Shown here: in pieces, positions 319-49,405 of the stretch | Layout: every line of letters starts with the position of its first letter | How positions within the stretch are numbered: position 1 is the first letter of the stretch | Source: Victivallales bacterium | GTDB taxonomy: Bacteria > Verrucomicrobiota > Lentisphaeria > Oligosphaerales > Oligosphaeraceae | Assembly: GCA_017535315.1 (NCBI GenBank) | Contig: JAFXUD010000002.1 | Location: forward strand, 248,001 to 312,000 | Direction of reading: 5' to 3' | DNA length: 64,000 nt | Made by a program: the position numbers and the translations under genes | The notes under the pieces: model-generated | Databases searched by the model: none | Seen by the model: the letters and a program-made list of their open reading frames with translations, nothing else | Told to the model about the DNA's origin: nothing

Positions 319-346
319 GGTTGGGGCTCCTAGGGGGGCTGCTGGG

Positions 347-600
347 GTCTGGATCTGCTAGGGTAGGTCTTCTAGGGTAGGTCTGCTAGGGTAGGTCTGC
401 TAGGGTAGGTCTGCTAGGGTAGGTCTTCTAGGGTAGGTCTGCTAGGGTAGGTCTGCTAGGGTAGGTCTGCTAGGGTAGGTCTGCTAGGGCTACTAGGATA
501 AGTCTGCTAAGTCTTCTAAGTCATCTAGGGGGTAGGTCTTCTAGGGTAAGTCCTCTAGGGTAAGTCCTCTAGGGTAAGTCTTCTAGGTTGAGTCTTCTAG
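347..600. repeat. 14-bp CTAG-rich tandem repeat
   Basis: Nine consecutive, almost identical copies of the 14-mer gggtaggtctgcta run from 361 to 486; the only change is g to t in a few units. A degenerate stretch follows, then four or five variant units of the form gggtaagtcctcta reach about 600. Each unit joins the next through CTAG. The array fills the gap between the gene starting at 318 and the gene ending at 770, so it would be transcribed as leader of the former. No open frame or known family explains it. Confidence 0.9.
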
Positions 601-3541: not shown

Positions 3542-3712
3542 TATTCAGAAGGGGGCATATTGGCATAATCCACTGGGTTTTCTGTGCCTTGCCGCTCTGC
3601 TTCGCTACACGGCACGACGCAAAGGAACTGGGGGTTTCGTCTACCCGTGGGTTTCGCTTTCGCCACCCACGGCTATGTTCTTGTCGCCGCTACGCTGCTC
3701 CCCTTCTGAATA
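3542..3712 (+). repeat. Hairpin-rich dispersed element, copy A
   Basis: A 171-bp intergenic element bounded by 13-bp terminal inverted repeats, tattcagaagggg (3542-3554) and ccccttctgaata (3700-3712). Inside are an imperfect stem around tgtgccttgccgc and cggcacgacgca, and a second stem with ccgtgggt and acccacgg. The same internal order occurs at 32205-32346, 47369-47520 (reverse orientation) and, as a 5' fragment, at 50243-50300. It has no coding capacity, so it looks like a non-autonomous, MITE-like or REP-like element. Confidence 0.75.
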
Positions 3713-9255: not shown

Positions 9256-9303
9256 TAAAGAGGTAATTTCAAAACTAGCGCATTTCGATGATAGTTTTGA
9301 AAA
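9256..9303. repeat. Hairpin repeat, copy 1 (degraded)
   Basis: Starts taaagaggtaatttcaaaac and continues tagcgcattt, matching the left arm of the 80-bp hairpin at 9541-9620. Its own right arm is shortened: ttcaaaacta (9268-9277) pairs with tagttttgaa (9292-9301). It lies on the far side of tRNA-Leu from copy 2. Confidence 0.8.
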
Positions 9304-9540: not shown

Positions 9541-9620
9541 TAAAGAGGCAATTTCAAAACTAGCGCCAAATGCGCTAAGAGACGGGCGCATTTGGCGCTA
9601 GTTTTGAAATTACCTCTTTA
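9541..9620. repeat. 80-bp hairpin repeat, copy 2 (near-perfect)
   Basis: Two 35-base arms (9541-9575 and 9586-9620) are reverse complements with one mismatch, around the 10-base spacer taagagacgg. Arm ends read taaagagg. It sits between the end of the helicase gene (9657) and tRNA-Leu. Shorter matches to its outer part (gaaattacctc or gaggtaattt) occur near 32411, 56309 and 61085. It may double as terminator of the helicase transcript, although no T-run follows. Confidence 0.85.
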
Positions 9621-16889: not shown

Positions 16890-18058
16890 TGGTGTTTTCT
16901 GGTTGGAGATAGTTTTTGTTTTTTCAATTTAATGTCGGCGATAATCTCCTGCAGGTCTTTGCTTTCCCAGTGGTTTTCTCCATTGAAATAGTATTTTTCG
17001 GGGAAGAATGGAATGGGAACCAAACCGTCAAGCACCCGTTGGGCAATGAGAAGTTGCAAATCGAGAAACGCAATATCATTTTCATGCTTTGCCGCCAGCG
17101 AATAGGCTTGTTCACGGAACTCTACGCCAGGTTCGCCCACGTCGTCGGGGAGGGTTTTGCCGCCTTCCATGCGCCACCTTGTAATCAGCACCTGGCATTC
17201 TATCAGATCCAGGGTGGTGACGGTGGTCTCGGTCAAGCGTTTTTCGGGTGGCTTGTTGGCATTCAGATTGCGAATTTTCTCGATTTTCGTTTGGGTTCTC
17301 AAACAGGTCATTCTGACTTGATAAGAACGCATTTCATTGTTCAGAACAGCCTCCACACGGTATTCTGCCTTGTGGATATTTTGGAAAGGCTGCCAATCTA
17401 GGCAGATTCTGTAGATTGACCATTCAAGGTTATCTGGGTCAAATTTGTTCGCCATGCCGAGCCATTTTCCCAATTCGGGTGCATCTTTCGGGAAGCCACT
17501 TTTCTGATGCGAGGAGAAAAAGAGGGAGGCTAGCCGTGCATTCGCACGGAAACTCTCTTGGTCCATGAAAATCGCATCCATTTTAGGGGCGATTATCTCC
17601 TTGACTTCCGCAAACCGCCCCGTGTCGTAGGCGGCGGTGGCCTGTTTGAGCAAGGCTGAATATTCGGAACTCACCTTTGACGATGTCTGCGTGTCGATGA
17701 CTAGCACATCGGAGGAATCAACGAGTTTCGGGAAACGTGGACGACAAAAATATACTAGCAACCCGATTGCCACAAAACCGACAAGAAACAGCAGCTTCAT
17801 GGCGGGTGTATAGGCGGGGCGCCGACCGTGCAGAGCCTCCAGCAGTTCTGGAAGCTCATCACGTGGGATGGCCTTTGCCAAAACATGCTCCTCGAACTCC
17901 TTGTCGGCAGGCGCAACACTTCGCGTCTCTGGCAGGAGTACCTGCCCATCCCGCACGACAAGCTCTGTGGAAGGCACATTCGACACGCGCATAGGCGTTG
18001 TCCCCTCCACAACCGCAAGGGCATCGATGGAATGGTCTTTTGGAGAGTCTTCGTTCAT
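16886..18058 (-). CDS. Single-pass membrane protein of unknown function
   Basis: The product has 390 residues. An acidic cytoplasmic N-terminal segment of about 80 residues is followed by one membrane span (MKLLFLVGFVAIGLLVYF, about 85-103). A predicted periplasmic region of nearly 290 residues follows, rich in helix-forming stretches; YDTGRFAEVKEIIAPKMD could be a TPR-like helix pair. No family is recognised. It begins 13 bases after the stop of a glycosidase gene (18072), so it may be co-transcribed with that gene. Its stop overlaps the next start by four bases. Together with the DUF1232 protein and the helicase it forms a tightly packed set. Confidence 0.7.
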   Translation of the reverse strand: MNEDSPKDHSIDALAVVEGTTPMRVSNVPSTELVVRDGQVLLPETRSVAPADKEFEEHVLAKAIPRDELPELLEALHGRRPAYTPAMKLLFLVGFVAIGLLVYFCRPRFPKLVDSSDVLVIDTQTSSKVSSEYSALLKQATAAYDTGRFAEVKEIIAPKMDAIFMDQESFRANARLASLFFSSHQKSGFPKDAPELGKWLGMANKFDPDNLEWSIYRICLDWQPFQNIHKAEYRVEAVLNNEMRSYQVRMTCLRTQTKIEKIRNLNANKPPEKRLTETTVTTLDLIECQVLITRWRMEGGKTLPDDVGEPGVEFREQAYSLAAKHENDIAFLDLQLLIAQRVLDGLVPIPFFPEKYYFNGENHWESKDLQEIIADIKLKKQKLSPTRKHQ

Positions 18059-20286: not shown

Positions 20287-22209
20287 TTATGGTACCAACT
20301 TGACAAACGCGGGTTCAAAGCCTGCCAGCTTCAGCGTGAAGCTGTTGCTCTTCAGCGTAGGCGCAGGGCCGAACTCGGCAGTTGCTTTTGTGGCGGTTGC
20401 GCCGACGGTCACCTCGACCTCGACAGGCTTGTCATTGCCGTTTACAACCAGCACATAGTCCGCGCCGTTGTAGTGCCAGGTGCGCGTATCAATCTTTTCG
20501 GCATTGACGCTGACCGTAGGCGCGGGCTCGACGGAGAGCAGCACGGGTATCTGCTTTTTCACCATCTCGCCAGCTTCGCACACCTCCGCCCAGGCCTCCT
20601 CGAACGGCACTCCGTTGGCGGGCTTTTTGAGGTCGTAGTAGGAGTAGGGGATGAGGCCGTTGGCACCGTTGGCGATGCAGAGCCAGAACATGCACTTGAT
20701 TTCGGCAAGTGTCGGCTTGCGGCAGCCGATGGCGGCAGGACCTTTGCGGTAGCAAGCCCAGTTGAAAATCTGGGGCACCTGCCATACGGCGTAGTGCTTG
20801 AAGGCACCGTCGCGGGTCATGCGCGTCCAGCGCGCCGCCTCGTAGGCGCCCTTGCCAGGGATGGGATAGGGATCTGTCCCGATGATGTCGAAGGAGTTGA
20901 GGTATTCGCTTATCTGCGTATATTGGTAGAGGACGACCCACGTCGGGTGGTCAGGATCGAGCTTCTCCATCAAATCCCGCCTGGCAACGAGCTTGTCAAT
21001 CATGCTAAGAGGAAGTTCGTCGTTGATGTACCATGCGATGAGCGCAGGATGCTTCGCAAAGTCCTTGACCCTCTTTTCAATGAAATTCACGGCGTCCTCG
21101 TCGGTGTTGATGCTTTTGGGGCACCATTTGGTGCCTGGGTAGGCATCCTTGATGGAGTAGATGATTTTGAGGCCGTTCTCGCTGATTTTGTCCATTCCCT
21201 CGATGTTTCCAGGAGGCCCGTATGCCATGATGCAGTTGAAGGGCGATGCGCCGATGACCTTCAAGTCCGCCTCGGCGGCGTTGGAGACGTAGAGCCCCAG
21301 CGGGAAGAAAGGCTGGCCATCGGCAATCAGCCGCTTGTATTCGTCGATATAGCAACGGCCATAATCAAGTTTTGCGGCCTTTGTGAAAGTGCGTTGCGCG
21401 CTGCCCTTCTTGCTCTTGCACTCGAAGTTTGCCTTCACGGTATATTTCCCTGCGAGAAGTGGTGCAATGTCGAGCTTTGCCGTGCATTGGGTCAGCTCAA
21501 TGCCTTCCGCCTTTTGCGTAAGCACGGTTTTGCCAGCGGCATCGACAATCTCGAATTGCCCTGAAACATCTTTAGGCTCAATGCGCAGGGGACGGAGGTT
21601 CAGTGCAACGGTGATCTCAAGTTCCTTGCCGTCCGTGATGCCGCGATAAGGCGCGACGGAAATCGGCCCCACCAGCTCTGGCTGGAACAGACGGCAGTAT
21701 GGACGGTCGAACCAAGCCTTGCCGACCATCCCCTTGCGGGCATAGAGGGCAAAACGCGCGGTGTTCACGCCTTCTGGCACTTGTCCTGACCTCATATGAA
21801 TGAGCGTCCAATTCGGGGTGTTTCCCTTTTTGCCGCTTGGGTAGTCGCCGCCGCGGAACTTCCCGTCCTTGTCGTACCACTCCAGGCAGACGGTGGCTCC
21901 GCTGTCTTCGCCAGTCATGTTTTCTGTCTTCACGTAGGTGCCAAAGACAAAAATATCGCCAGGACGGCAGTTGATGTTCTGAACACAGAGATGGTAGGTT
22001 TCAGGGCTCTTGTTCTCAAACGCCAGACAGTTGCCATTCTCTCCACCGTTAATCAAAACGCTGAAATTGGACCCCATCACCCACCCCGCAGGCTTCCCAT
22101 TCCCCTCGAATTGGCTGAAGTCGTGGTTCGCAATGAGATTGTCGTCTGCATATAAGAAACTTATACAGACCAAGAAAAAGATTGTTAAAGCAGAATGATG
22201 TTTTAACAC
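20287..22209 (-). CDS. Secreted CBM plus TIM-barrel glycosidase (GH2/GH5-like)
   Basis: The product has 640 residues with a GTG start at 22209, supported by AAGGAGG six bases upstream and a signal peptide (LTIFFLVCISFLYA). Residues about 20-180 form a carbohydrate-binding jelly roll (NLIANHDFSQFEGNGKPAGW). An Ig-like linker follows, then a TIM barrel from about 285, with LIADGQPFFPLGLY at its start and HPALIAWYINDELP near 395. That acidic residue matches the acid/base Glu of clan GH-A enzymes. The protein at 53030-55552 has the same barrel motifs, so the two are distant paralogues. The next gene starts 16 bases downstream. Confidence 0.65.
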   Translation of the reverse strand: MLKHHSALTIFFLVCISFLYADDNLIANHDFSQFEGNGKPAGWVMGSNFSVLINGGENGNCLAFENKSPETYHLCVQNINCRPGDIFVFGTYVKTENMTGEDSGATVCLEWYDKDGKFRGGDYPSGKKGNTPNWTLIHMRSGQVPEGVNTARFALYARKGMVGKAWFDRPYCRLFQPELVGPISVAPYRGITDGKELEITVALNLRPLRIEPKDVSGQFEIVDAAGKTVLTQKAEGIELTQCTAKLDIAPLLAGKYTVKANFECKSKKGSAQRTFTKAAKLDYGRCYIDEYKRLIADGQPFFPLGLYVSNAAEADLKVIGASPFNCIMAYGPPGNIEGMDKISENGLKIIYSIKDAYPGTKWCPKSINTDEDAVNFIEKRVKDFAKHPALIAWYINDELPLSMIDKLVARRDLMEKLDPDHPTWVVLYQYTQISEYLNSFDIIGTDPYPIPGKGAYEAARWTRMTRDGAFKHYAVWQVPQIFNWACYRKGPAAIGCRKPTLAEIKCMFWLCIANGANGLIPYSYYDLKKPANGVPFEEAWAEVCEAGEMVKKQIPVLLSVEPAPTVSVNAEKIDTRTWHYNGADYVLVVNGNDKPVEVEVTVGATATKATAEFGPAPTLKSNSFTLKLAGFEPAFVKLVP

Positions 22210-32204: not shown

Positions 32205-32346
32205 GTCGATGGCCTGGATGCGCCTTGCCGCTTTCTAAAGCGGCAAGGCGCACGGGGACTGGGGTGGGCATCTGACCGTGGTTTTTGCTTCGCCGCTGTC
32301 GCAGCTTCGCTCTACCCACGGCTATGCTCTTGCTGCCGCTTACGCG
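32205..32346 (+). repeat. Hairpin-rich dispersed element, copy B
   Basis: Contains a perfect 16-bp stem, tgcgccttgccgcttt (32219-32234) with its complement (32237-32252). A second imperfect stem follows around accgtggt and acccacgg, then ctatgctcttgctgccgctt, the same order as copies A and C. It fills most of a 533-base gene-free gap (32027-32559). The remainder holds ttttgaaattac near 32409, resembling the edge of the 9541 hairpin, and no gene. Copy B may act as a terminator between converging genes. Confidence 0.75.
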
Positions 32347-32559
32347 GCTCTTCTCTGTGGGTAAAGTCCAATCGGCAACTAAAGTTTATAATTCCCCCTT
32401 TTTTTCAAGAGCTTATTTTGAAATTACTTCTCAAGCCTGAGACAACAGAGGATTTCTGCCGCCCCTTATACAGGGCTCTATTCTACCTGAGGAACAAAGT
32501 GTAGGGAGAATTCGTCACGCTAATAGTACAAAGACGTGACAATTTGCGGCATCCGTAAA

Positions 32560-45216: not shown

Positions 45217-46220
45217 TTTGGCAGTCGTTGAATATGCTGAACTGGCTGTGGGTGTTGCCCGTGTTCGTGCTGATGTTTGTGTATGCGGGCATCATGCGTC
45301 GTCGCGGAATGGCGACCTTTGCGGCTCTTGGGATGCAGGAGCGGCTTCTGAAAAACGTGAGTTTTGTGCGTCGCCGCTGGAAGCAGGTAATGATATTGGC
45401 AGCGTTGTGTTTGACGGTTTTAGCGCTGGCGCGTCCAGCGTGGAACCCTGTTGCACGTGAGGTTTCACGAAAGGGGCGTGATGTGGTTTTCGTGCTCGAT
45501 GTCTCGCGCTCCATGCTGGCGGACGACTTGCAGCCAAACCGCCTGGAGCGAGCCAAGATTGCCATTGGCGACTGCTTGGATGTGCTGGAGGGCGATCGTG
45601 TGGCCCTCGTGGTCTTTGCTGGCACGGCGATGGTGCGTTGCCCGTTGACTGTTGATTACGGTTTTTTCCGCATGATGCTGGCCGACGTGGAACCGCGCAG
45701 CGTTGGGCATGGCGGCACGAAAATCGGCGATGCCCTGCGCCTCGTGATGAAGGAGGTGTTCGACAACCAGGAGAAGCAGTTCAAGGACGTGGTGCTGATT
45801 ACGGACGGCGAGGACCAGGACAGTTTTGCCGTGCAGGCGGCAGAGGCCCTTGGCAAGGCGTCGGTGCGTCTGCTGGCGGTCGGCCTTGGCGACGAAGTCA
45901 ATGGCACGCCTATTCTCGTGACAGGCGAGGACGGTAGCCGCGATTTCATCAAGAACAAAGGCGAGGTTGTGCGCAGCAAGCTGGACGGTGCCACGCTGCG
46001 CGAAATGGTGGCGGCCACGCCAGGCGGACGCTATCTGCCTGTTGCCACTGGAAACTTCGACTTGGGCGCAATTTATCGCTCGCTGATAGCGACAGCGGAG
46101 AAACGTCTGGTGGAGAGCGAGACGGTAGAACGCTATGAGGAGAAATACCAGATTTTCCTGCTTGGAGCCCTGTTTCTTCTGTTGGTGGAGCCATTCATCG
46201 GGATAAGGAGGGCTGCATGA
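45213..46220 (+). CDS. batB: BatB-like VWA membrane protein
   Basis: The product has 335 residues with a GTG start at 45213, chosen for AGGAGG five bases upstream and the GTGA overlap with batA; a longer reading frame begins earlier but inside batA. Two N-terminal spans (LWVLPVFVLMFVYAGI and VMILAALCLTVLAL) precede the VWA domain with MIDAS VLDVSRSM near 95, GGTKIGDALRLV and VVLITDGEDQDSF. A C-terminal span (FLLGALFLLLVEPFIG) ends the protein. It is a paralogue and probable partner of BatA, overlapping batC by four bases. Confidence 0.92.
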   Translation: MIWQSLNMLNWLWVLPVFVLMFVYAGIMRRRGMATFAALGMQERLLKNVSFVRRRWKQVMILAALCLTVLALARPAWNPVAREVSRKGRDVVFVLDVSRSMLADDLQPNRLERAKIAIGDCLDVLEGDRVALVVFAGTAMVRCPLTVDYGFFRMMLADVEPRSVGHGGTKIGDALRLVMKEVFDNQEKQFKDVVLITDGEDQDSFAVQAAEALGKASVRLLAVGLGDEVNGTPILVTGEDGSRDFIKNKGEVVRSKLDGATLREMVAATPGGRYLPVATGNFDLGAIYRSLIATAEKRLVESETVERYEEKYQIFLLGALFLLLVEPFIGIRRAA

Positions 46221-47368
46221 TGCGTAGATGGCTATTGTTGATGGCATTTTGCCTGATTTCTTTTGCGGGTGAGGCGGAAAAGCTGCTCAAGCAGGGCAAC
46301 AATGCCTTGAATGAAGAAAAGTACGATGATGCGCTTTCGCTTTATGACAAGGCATTGGTGGAAAGTCCAGAAAACCCCTATCTTATTTTCAACAAGGGTG
46401 TCGCCTATTTCAAGCAAGGCGAATACGAAAAGGCTATGAAGGAATACAAGCTGGCGGTTGAGAAGCTGGCCAGCCAGAAACGCGGGGATTCTGCGTTGGA
46501 GGCGCGTGCATTTGCCTCCATGGGCAACGCCTGCTTCCTTCAGGCGAAGCCTCTGCTGGAAAGCAATCTGGATCAGGCTTCTGCCCTGTGCCTGGGGGCT
46601 GTCGCCGCGTTCGACGAGGCCCTTCGGATACGTCCAGAAGACGCCGCTCTCCTGGAGAACCGCAAGGCGGCACGTATGCTATTGAAGAAGATCTTGGGTA
46701 TCAAGTATATGCAGGCAAAGGAACAGCAGAAGCAGCAGGAGATGGCACAGAAACTGAAGGAACTTGCGGAACGTCAGAAGCAGGCCGCCGACGAGACCGC
46801 CCAGCAGAAGCCTGATGTTCAGAAACAGGAGCAGTTGAACCAAGAGACACAGGAGCTGATGGAACAAATGAGTGGGCAGAACCAACCGCAGCCACAACAA
46901 CAAGATCCACAGCAACAGCAGAATCCCATTCAGGAGGCGATGCAGCAGGCTCGTCAGGCGCAGGATGACGCCACGCAGAACTTGAAGGAGAACCAATTGC
47001 CTGCAGCCGAGGCCAAACAGCGCGAGGCTGCCGAGAAGCTGGAGGAGGCTCTCAAGCAGGGCCAGCAGCAACAGCAACAGCAGCAACAGAACCAAGAGGG
47101 CGACGATAAGCAGGAACAAGATAAGGACAAACAGGAGCAGGAAAAAGAGGGTGACGACAAGCAGGAGCAGGAGAAGGACAAGCAGGACGATTCGGAGGAA
47201 CAGCAGCAACAACAGGAGCAGAATGAGCAGGAAGCACAGGAGAACAAGGAAGAGCCCAAGGAGGATGCTCAGGAAGCACAGGAGATAATCGACCGTGAAC
47301 GCCAGGACAAGAAGGAGCGCGAGCAAGGCGAAAAACGTAACTACCGTGCTGTTCCGATGGACTGGTAG
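46217..47368 (+). CDS. batC: BatC-like TPR protein with Gln-rich tail
   Basis: The product has 383 residues with signal peptide MMRRWLLLMAFCLISFAG. TPR repeats occupy about 18-150 (AEKLLKQGNNALNEEKYDDA, PYLIFNKGVAYFKQGEYEKA). From about 165 to 365 the chain is a long charged, Gln/Lys/Glu-rich, coiled-coil-like tail with runs of up to nine Gln. It ends NYRAVPMDW; BatC proteins characteristically end in a short motif with DW. BatC is a periplasmic component of the Bat system. The last 57 bases of the gene are repeated 210 bases downstream at 47521-47577, on the other side of hairpin element copy C. Confidence 0.88.
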   Translation: MMRRWLLLMAFCLISFAGEAEKLLKQGNNALNEEKYDDALSLYDKALVESPENPYLIFNKGVAYFKQGEYEKAMKEYKLAVEKLASQKRGDSALEARAFASMGNACFLQAKPLLESNLDQASALCLGAVAAFDEALRIRPEDAALLENRKAARMLLKKILGIKYMQAKEQQKQQEMAQKLKELAERQKQAADETAQQKPDVQKQEQLNQETQELMEQMSGQNQPQPQQQDPQQQQNPIQEAMQQARQAQDDATQNLKENQLPAAEAKQREAAEKLEEALKQGQQQQQQQQQNQEGDDKQEQDKDKQEQEKEGDDKQEQEKDKQDDSEEQQQQQEQNEQEAQENKEEPKEDAQEAQEIIDRERQDKKEREQGEKRNYRAVPMDW

Positions 47369-47520
47369 GTCGTTAGGAGCCGCGTTAGCGGCGACAGGAA
47401 CATAGCCGTGGGTGAAGCGAAGCGCCGTAGGCGCGAAGCGAAACCCACGGTCAAGATACACTTAAGTTCGTTTGCGCCGTGCCGCGAAGCATAGCGAAGC
47501 GGCAGGGCGCAGATGTGAGC
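47369..47520 (-). repeat. Hairpin-rich dispersed element, copy C
   Basis: In the reverse orientation to copies A and B. Stem 1: tgcgccgtgccgc (47473-47485) with gcggcagggcgca (47499-47511), one mismatch. Stem 2: ccgtgggt (47406-47413) with acccacgg (47443-47450), enclosing gcgcc/ggcgc. The end reads as copy A does (ctatgttcctgtcgccgct on the minus strand). It separates the two copies of the batC 3' end. Confidence 0.8.
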
Positions 47521-47577
47521 GAAGGAGCGCGAGCAAGGCGAAAAACGTAACTACCGTGCCGTCCCGATGGACTGGTA
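47521..47577 (+). pseudogene. Duplicate of the last 19 codons of batC
   Basis: 55 of 57 bases match 47311-47367 at a constant offset of 210 bases. The only differences are third-position changes, GCT to GCC and GTT to GTC, so both copies encode KEREQGEKRNYRAVPMDW, ending TAG in batC and TAA here. In-frame stops in the intervening element prevent readthrough. There is no start codon of its own; it is a relic or the original gene end displaced by the element. Confidence 0.85.
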
Positions 47578-47602
47578 ACTTGATTTGGAAATACGCATTA
47601 TA

Positions 47603-49405
47603 ATGAAAACGTTATTGTCATTTTTGTTTTTGACCGCTATAATCTGCTTTGCTCAGGAGGCGGTAACTGTCCGTGTTGCCATTGAGAGCAGGGATGTTCT
47701 CGTCGGGGAGGCGTTTATCTTTCAGGTAGTGGTTTCCAATGCGAAGGATGTGAAAGATTTTGCCTTTCCTGCAACGAATGCGTTTATGGTGCAGCCGCTG
47801 GGACCGTCCAACAACAACAGTACGCAGATCAGCATTGTGAACGGGAAATACACTAAAATCGAGAAGCGGGAGGTTCTCTATAATTTCCGCCTGGTGGCGA
47901 AGCAGGAGGGAAATCTTGTAATACCCTCCTTGACGGTGGTTGCCGACGGCAGGAGCTTTCGCACGCAGCCAGTTCGCATACACTCCAGCAAGGGCGAGGA
48001 GATAACCGACATCGTCCTGGAGCTGAAATGCTCGAGCGCAGAGTGCTATGTGGGGCAGACCGTCATGGCAAATTGGAAACTCTATTTTGCGCGCAACATC
48101 CAGTTGAGCCGCATCGAACTGCCTTTGCTTGAAAACAGCGAATTCTCCTTCCCACCATACGAGGCTCCCATCGACAATGCGAAAATTGACAATTACAGGC
48201 GCATCCCCATCTCGGATACGGACAGTGTCATCGCCTATCTTTCATACGAAAACTACGATGGAATGCAAGTGCGTTGCCTCTCGTTTTCACGTCCGATAAC
48301 CGCGCAGAAGGCAGGAGAGTTTCGGCTTTCCGCAGGGCGTGCGCTTTGTAGCGTGCCTGACAAGCGTGCCCGCCGTACACGCCGCTCGCCATTTGACTTT
48401 TTCGACAGCGAGCCCATGCGCTCCGTGATGATAGATGGCAAGTCCTTCATGTTAAAGGTGAAAGAACTTCCTGAGGCTGGGCGCCCTGCCAATTTCAGCG
48501 GCATCATCGGCGCATGCTCCATTGTGACAACTGCGAAGCCCGTCGATGTGAATGTGGGCGACCCGATTGTTCTGACCATCGCTCTCAAGGGACTTGCCTA
48601 TCCCGACACGGCGCGTCTGCCGGCATTGACTTCTCAGTCCGACCTCGCAAAATACTTTCGTATCTCCGACCAGGACAGCGGTACGGTGCAGGACGGCAAC
48701 AAAGTTTTCCAATGTACTCTGCGCGCCCAGAACAGCGATGTCAAGGAGATACCCGCCTTATCCCTCGCCTACTTCGACAGTCCCACTGGCACCTATACGG
48801 AGGCGGTGAGCCAGCCGATCCCCATCACTGTCCACGCGGTGAAGACGGTTACGGCTGCCGATGCCCAGGGGACTGTGTTGGCGGCTCCTGTCGTGGGCAC
48901 CGAGGTGAAGGCGCTGGATGACGGTATCGCCCACAACTATTCCTACGACAAACTATTGCATGATGACCGTGCGGGATTCTTCAACTGGAGTTCCCGAAAA
49001 TGGCAACCGTGGGTCTGCCTGGGATGTTTGTTCTTGTACGGGGTGTGCGGAGCATTGAATTGGATGGTTGCTCGAAGAAACGCAGATCCAGCCCGCCTAG
49101 CGGCACAGCACCGTCTATCGGAGGCGATGGCTGTCATCCAGGGGGGCAAGGCGGATGTATCGGATCTATTCAATGCCTTGCAGGGGGTATTGGCAGCCAA
49201 ACTGCGGCTGCCACCAGGCGCGTTGACCTTCCATGATGTGAAGGTCCCACTCGAAAAGTCACGTTTGAAAGCGGAGGACAGGGAGAGCCTGGCCAAGCTC
49301 TTTGACTCTTTCGAGGCAGCCAGTTACTCAGGTGGGCGGGCAGATGCAACCAGCCTTCAAGCAGAGACGCAGCGCCTCGCCAAGCTCCTTTCACGCACGC
49401 TTTAA
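47603..49405 (+). CDS. batD: BatD-like protein (oxygen tolerance)
   Basis: The product has 600 residues from ATG 47603, where the signal peptide MKTLLSFLFLTAIICFAQ begins. It contains several Ig-like beta domains typical of BatD: EAVTVRVAIESRDVLVGEAF, then GQTVMANWKLYFARN and VNVGDPIVLTIALKGLAYPD. One membrane span lies near 470 (WVCLGCLFLYGVCGALNWMV). A helical cytoplasmic tail has VSDLFNALQGVLAAKLRL, similar to the tail of the DUF4381-like protein. BatD spans periplasm and inner membrane in the Bat complex. The gap from batC (234 bases) is filled by the element and duplicate, so coupling in the operon is interrupted here. Confidence 0.9.
   Translation: MKTLLSFLFLTAIICFAQEAVTVRVAIESRDVLVGEAFIFQVVVSNAKDVKDFAFPATNAFMVQPLGPSNNNSTQISIVNGKYTKIEKREVLYNFRLVAKQEGNLVIPSLTVVADGRSFRTQPVRIHSSKGEEITDIVLELKCSSAECYVGQTVMANWKLYFARNIQLSRIELPLLENSEFSFPPYEAPIDNAKIDNYRRIPISDTDSVIAYLSYENYDGMQVRCLSFSRPITAQKAGEFRLSAGRALCSVPDKRARRTRRSPFDFFDSEPMRSVMIDGKSFMLKVKELPEAGRPANFSGIIGACSIVTTAKPVDVNVGDPIVLTIALKGLAYPDTARLPALTSQSDLAKYFRISDQDSGTVQDGNKVFQCTLRAQNSDVKEIPALSLAYFDSPTGTYTEAVSQPIPITVHAVKTVTAADAQGTVLAAPVVGTEVKALDDGIAHNYSYDKLLHDDRAGFFNWSSRKWQPWVCLGCLFLYGVCGALNWMVARRNADPARLAAQHRLSEAMAVIQGGKADVSDLFNALQGVLAAKLRLPPGALTFHDVKVPLEKSRLKAEDRESLAKLFDSFEAASYSGGRADATSLQAETQRLAKLLSRTL

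Follow-up and report, generated by a model that had tools for sequence, protein, structure and literature searches.

The window, which is the whole stretch of 64,000 nucleotides analyzed here, has a batC-like TPR gene (46217..47368, plus strand) followed by the batD gene (47585..49405, plus strand). The batC-like ORF product has TPR domains and matched the BatC model weakly in a profile search. The product of the next ORF has a BatD domain (PF13584, E 1e-20), and its translation likely starts from the ATG at about 47603. A direct-repeat search confirmed the original prediction that the last bases of batC recur in front of batD. The 57 bases at 47311..47367 are found again at 47521..47577 (both plus strand), with an offset of 210 and an identity of 55/57, and the two differences (GCT/GCC and GTT/GTC) are both synonymous. 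The upstream copy is coding and in use as the 3′ end of the gene. A chance origin of this repeat was ruled out, and an unbiased duplication scan, which covered about 1.2 of 4.9 Mb, gave no other comparable case.

The stop codon had been described as intact in the second copy. Both copies do end in a stop codon, but the 57-bp repeat reaches only two bases into it, and the codons are TAG (47366-47368) upstream and TAA (47576-47578) downstream, a third difference if the stop is counted. The insertion left batC intact and its C-terminus is preserved, as had been predicted, although the residues conserved in relatives are DW rather than MDW. It had also been supposed that the second copy is in frame. 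However, a TGA shortly before this copy closes its reading frame, which has no start codon (...RAQM*AKEREQ...). Thus, the downstream copy is not translated. Since there are stops between the copies and no downstream start, an offset divisible by three has no meaning here. Present coding selection on the extra copy, another suggestion, is excluded for such an untranslated relic.

Comparison with a sister species

Is the duplication ancestral? The genus comparison set consisted of three genomes. The sister genome, Victivallales bacterium RGIG3631 (G001), is a goat rumen MAG of the same genus, and near the locus it shows 83-86% DNA identity with the window. In the comparison of batC-batD junctions, which had been proposed as a check, G001 has one batC end with the junction TGG-TAA-CTTGATT (GTTCCGATGGATTGG-TAA-CTTGATTC), and neither the hairpin element nor the duplication exists at this junction, so that an empty sister site is established. 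The downstream copy of the window continues in a G001-like context, TAACTTGATT. Since it is the downstream copy that retains the ancestral context, what was added is the element together with the upstream copy. Five sites distinguish the upstream copy from G001, and the downstream copy shares all of these differences (5/5). Thus, the duplication took place after the species had split. At the two sites that distinguish the copies from each other, the sister's (ancestral) base is in the upstream copy and the derived base in the downstream copy. Judging from these alignments, the downstream copy is the original gene end, now an untranslated relic, and batC now uses the upstream copy as its end, with a new TAG stop.

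The insert and the dispersed hairpin family

The 153-bp insert between the copies consists of a ten-base filler, a 136-base core with three hairpins, and a filler of about seven bases. The left filler, GGTCGTTAGG (47368..47377, plus strand), finishes the TAG stop with its first base. The core (47378..47513, plus strand) forms hairpin 1 at ~47379-47392, hairpin 2 at ~47405-47450, and hairpin 3 at ~47465-47522. The right filler (47514..47520, plus strand) lies within GATGTGAGC. The folding energy of the element is -84.4 kcal/mol (z -6.4). The insert has no ORF of its own and no room for a recombinase gene. In the DNA examined, the pattern search found neither filler at any other copy, and a source copy sharing the batC junction filler was therefore rejected.

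The original prediction that this hairpin element is a dispersed one proved correct, as 128 distinct copies of the core were found in the own genome (DNA examined). A whole-genome search with the batC element gave dozens of matches, the best non-self ones being 85-86% identical. The nearest copy to the batC element is at 0.871, against a median of 0.956. The element is also present in five other genomes (G001, G002, G003, G020, and G024). Most core copies lie inside MITEs of three families having terminal inverted repeats (TIRs) of 17-25 bp, namely F1 (GTAACTATTCAGAAGGG), F2 (GGGAATTATGTACTTTAGTTGCC), and F3 (GTAATCCCTCAGTGATTGATATG). The same window has a copy in an F2 MITE (GGGAATTATATACTT...; 32217..32349, minus strand) and another in an F1 MITE (CTATTCAGAAGGGG...CCTTCTGAATAATTAC; 3581..3699, minus strand). 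Some copies of each TIR family have 8-bp target duplications (TSDs), such as CATAAACC, CACCTAAT, and AAACTTTA. TIR-less copies also exist, and the batC copy is one of them. It has no TIR of F1, F2, or F3 on either side, and the 8-bp TSD is missing, the flanking repeat there being 57 bp. Thus, a normal MITE insertion is disfavored at batC.

The family resembles known MITEs, which are non-autonomous miniature elements of the DDE type, in that most copies have the same core between TIRs, many of them with 8-bp target duplications. In contrast to known MITEs, the batC copy has a 57-bp flanking repeat without TIRs, one core is combined with three TIR families, and no gene for an IS66-type transposase (PF03050) was found in the genome. 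IS66 was rejected as the driver of the F1 MITE because of this absence. One hairpin core is common to three MITE families with different TIRs (for example, L083, L088, and L145, and L107 of G001). Hybrid MITEs with an F2 left end and an F1 right end, or an F3 left end and an F1 right end, were also seen, and their sequences suggest module exchange among MITEs. Another copy without recognized TIRs (L178 1478-1611, in G000:C82) lies within what looks like the end of a gene (KTWSFVADFN, followed by TAG), a 9-bp direct repeat, ATTTCAATT, bordering it on either side, and this insertion seems to have shortened the protein. A literature search on long target duplications of bacterial MITEs and on MITEs in Victivallales yielded no useful information.

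The first 73 bases of the core (47378..47450, plus strand) correspond to a module flanking two solitary Y1 transposase (PF01797) genes elsewhere in the genome (L193, G000:C58 about 17290-17631; L194, G000:C78:90597-90938). At both loci the module lies on both sides of the gene in opposite orientation. RAYT (TnpA_REP) genes have been described with inverted palindromic copies on both sides (PMC2817692). Thus, there is a likeness to REP/BIME and RAYT systems in the inverted copies around Y1 genes and in the abundance of a palindromic element (128 copies, stable hairpins), as expected of REP. On the other hand, the element is longer than REP and often nested in MITEs. It lacks a GTAG head on the 5′ side of the palindrome, and GTAG is present only in the loop of the RAYT-adjacent copies (TTTTTGAGCCCC.. 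and TTTCAAGCGGCG..). The Y1 proteins clearly matched PF01797 but scored 19-23 bits with the NCBIfam RAYT model NF047646, against a cut-off of 80. Since this score is below the cut-off and the GTAG head is absent, the element was not classed as REP. It is possible that the Y1 genes and the core module constitute a REP/RAYT-like system in Lentisphaerota. A known RNA family was rejected for the hairpin element, the only Rfam result being sub-threshold matches to Acido-Lenti-1 on parts of this element (L193 628-672 and L182 6413-6445, minus strand; window 47378-47450, minus strand). The Acido-Lenti-1 candidate RNA may itself be a repeat of the REP-like type in Lentisphaerota.

Survey of gene-end duplications

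Is gene-end duplication a habit of the element? I surveyed the flanks of about 231 copies, comprising the 128 own-genome copies, 25 in G001 and G002, and 78 more in G002, G003, G020, and G024, leaving aside TIRs, tandem copies, and simple repeats. A duplicated gene end flanks only two of them. One is batC with 57 bp, and the other is a nagB-like gene (L042, G000:C56 about 20835-21110), of which the final 20 bases are repeated with a single synonymous difference, the upstream stop being TAG and the downstream copy reading TCG TAA. A sister empty site was unobtainable for the nagB-like case, because G001 offers just a paralogue and the G002 contig ends within the orthologue. The intact-ended MITE copies make ordinary 8-bp TSDs. 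Thus, the original prediction of an element arriving with, or recreating, its target gene's end holds only in part. The sister genome lacks both parts and their joint arrival at batC is probable, but no general rule emerges from two cases in about 231, and the proposed survey of duplicated gene ends went against such a rule. The failure of the general claim is useful in itself.

In the 1.2-Mb scan, the batC repeat was the sole local non-array host duplication of at least 35 bp with the hairpin element in its spacer, and no host duplication of like kind with a unique spacer and no element was found. Thus, the element and the duplication probably came in one event. Other local duplications (L157, L164, and L171) were rejected, being protein or GC-rich repeats and not gene ends with an insert. 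The dispersed hairpin element is of a new but ordinary kind, and the batC case is a rare structural event within it. It probably represents a one-off joint insertion and duplication rather than a habit of the repeat, as far as the surveyed flanks tell.

Origin of the insertion and the duplication

A single, fairly recent duplication-insertion event probably took place at the batC-batD junction once the sister species had separated, the incoming material being the TIR-less hairpin element and a further copy of the 57 bases at the batC 3′ end. How did they come together? I tentatively favor illegitimate recombination with an allele of a related strain that already bore the element; this explanation leads the candidates while falling somewhat short of being probable. 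The donor allele and the recombination route are what I infer here. The donor would have had the hairpin already behind its batC. One side would be anchored by batC homology, either through a single crossover with a small circle or through one-sided invasion, and the other junction would form 57 bases before the resident gene ends. The upstream copy would thereby become the working gene end with its new TAG stop, and the original end, its TAA, and the native batD leader would be shifted 210 bases downstream, leaving an untranslated relic. The nagB-like case may be the same kind of event.

Several observations argue for the allelic donor. The copy differences are all synonymous, for which the chance is 0.034 to 0.088 for batC alone and about 0.01-0.03 for all three synonymous-only differences (two in batC and one in nagB), the latter being a post hoc value from three sites. 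These values come from a random-substitution model in which the synonymous fraction for batC is 0.185 (all changes) or 0.296 (transitions), and that for nagB is 0.296. The genome has no close source copy of the element, though the host repeats around the insert are 96.5% identical. Both this and the synonymous-only differences would fit if an element-bearing related allele had been imported, and the synonymous-only pattern is suggestive of such an origin. The lack at batC of the TIRs of all three MITE families and of the 8-bp TSD also speaks for it. It has been reported that a single crossover with a circle holding a truncated gene end leaves the insert between duplicated gene-end stretches of 109-950 bp (PMC3240628). 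The batC locus resembles these cases and those of homology-facilitated illegitimate recombination in having one homologous and one illegitimate side and the order gene end-insert-gene end. In contrast, the batC duplication is far shorter, 57 bp against 109-950 bp, and microhomology is not visible at the illegitimate join, where 3-10 bp are usual (PMC3240628). Moreover, no donor allele is known, and three substitutions are very few.

The derived bases both lie in the downstream copy, which is also expected from a relic drifting after an in-place insertion. This second-ranked explanation, an insertion with an unusually long target duplication, ranks only slightly below recombination with an element-bearing allele. 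A staggered break or a backward template switch would have brought in a copy of a hairpin element from another place and copied the final 57 bases a second time, and the downstream copy would then have drifted by two mutations. The geometry (X-element-X) is the simplest, the 8-bp TSDs at ordinary copies make target duplication normal for the family, and junction filler is present. However, 57 and 20 bp are long compared with the usual 8 bp, the batC copy has no TIR, the genome has no close source copy, and the substitutions are synonymous in 3/3.

An assembly chimera, made of an element-bearing and an element-free strain haplotype of batC fused end to end during metagenome assembly, is unlikely. 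The sister record is a MAG and the genome studied here (96 contigs, 95.6% completeness) is probably one too, and synonymous-only differences resemble strain variation. A plain k-mer overlap artefact would yield identical copies; the batC copies differ, and thus a De Bruijn overlap artefact was rejected as the sole cause. Only two such places were found, and the copies are divergent at each, whereas insertions that vary among strains should in most cases be young intact-ended MITEs, and element-free chimeras were not seen in 1.2 Mb. It seems improbable that the TIR-less form of the element has its own insertion mode at gene 3′ ends, duplicating or importing the last tens of bases while keeping the protein intact.

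Integrative elements of the SGI1 type integrate at the 3′ ends of genes and restore these ends. An analogous hairpin element that carries gene ends and rebuilds its target would match the batC locus in the upstream replacement end with a new stop, the displaced native end downstream, and the synonymous differences, and the nagB-like gene offers a second case, but this is the least credible of all the explanations, since the survey largely refuted it, the two target genes are unrelated with repeats differing in sequence and length (57 and 20 bp), and no recombinase or integrase gene is present in the spacer, which is MITE-type DNA of about 150-220 bp in all (153 bp at batC).

The batC locus shows how a dispersed hairpin element can get into a tight operon junction with the neighbors unharmed, the gene end and the native leader of the next gene surviving separately. 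The batC and nagB-like cases are clean substrates for distinguishing transposition from allele exchange between strains in rumen Victivallales.

Other repeats

Other repeats were seen in this genome. A CRISPR-like array (L161 16421-18564; G000:C78:216421-218564) has the repeat CTCAAACAGCACCCTTTAACCGAAAGGTGATTGAGAC with a period of about 75. A second dispersed palindrome family, TAAAGAGGTAATTTCAAAACTAGCGC, has a near-perfect inverted repeat and lies at window 9541-9620, near 9256, and at L194 about 650-690. The 14-base unit GGGTAGGTCTGCTA forms a tandem array at window 319-585.
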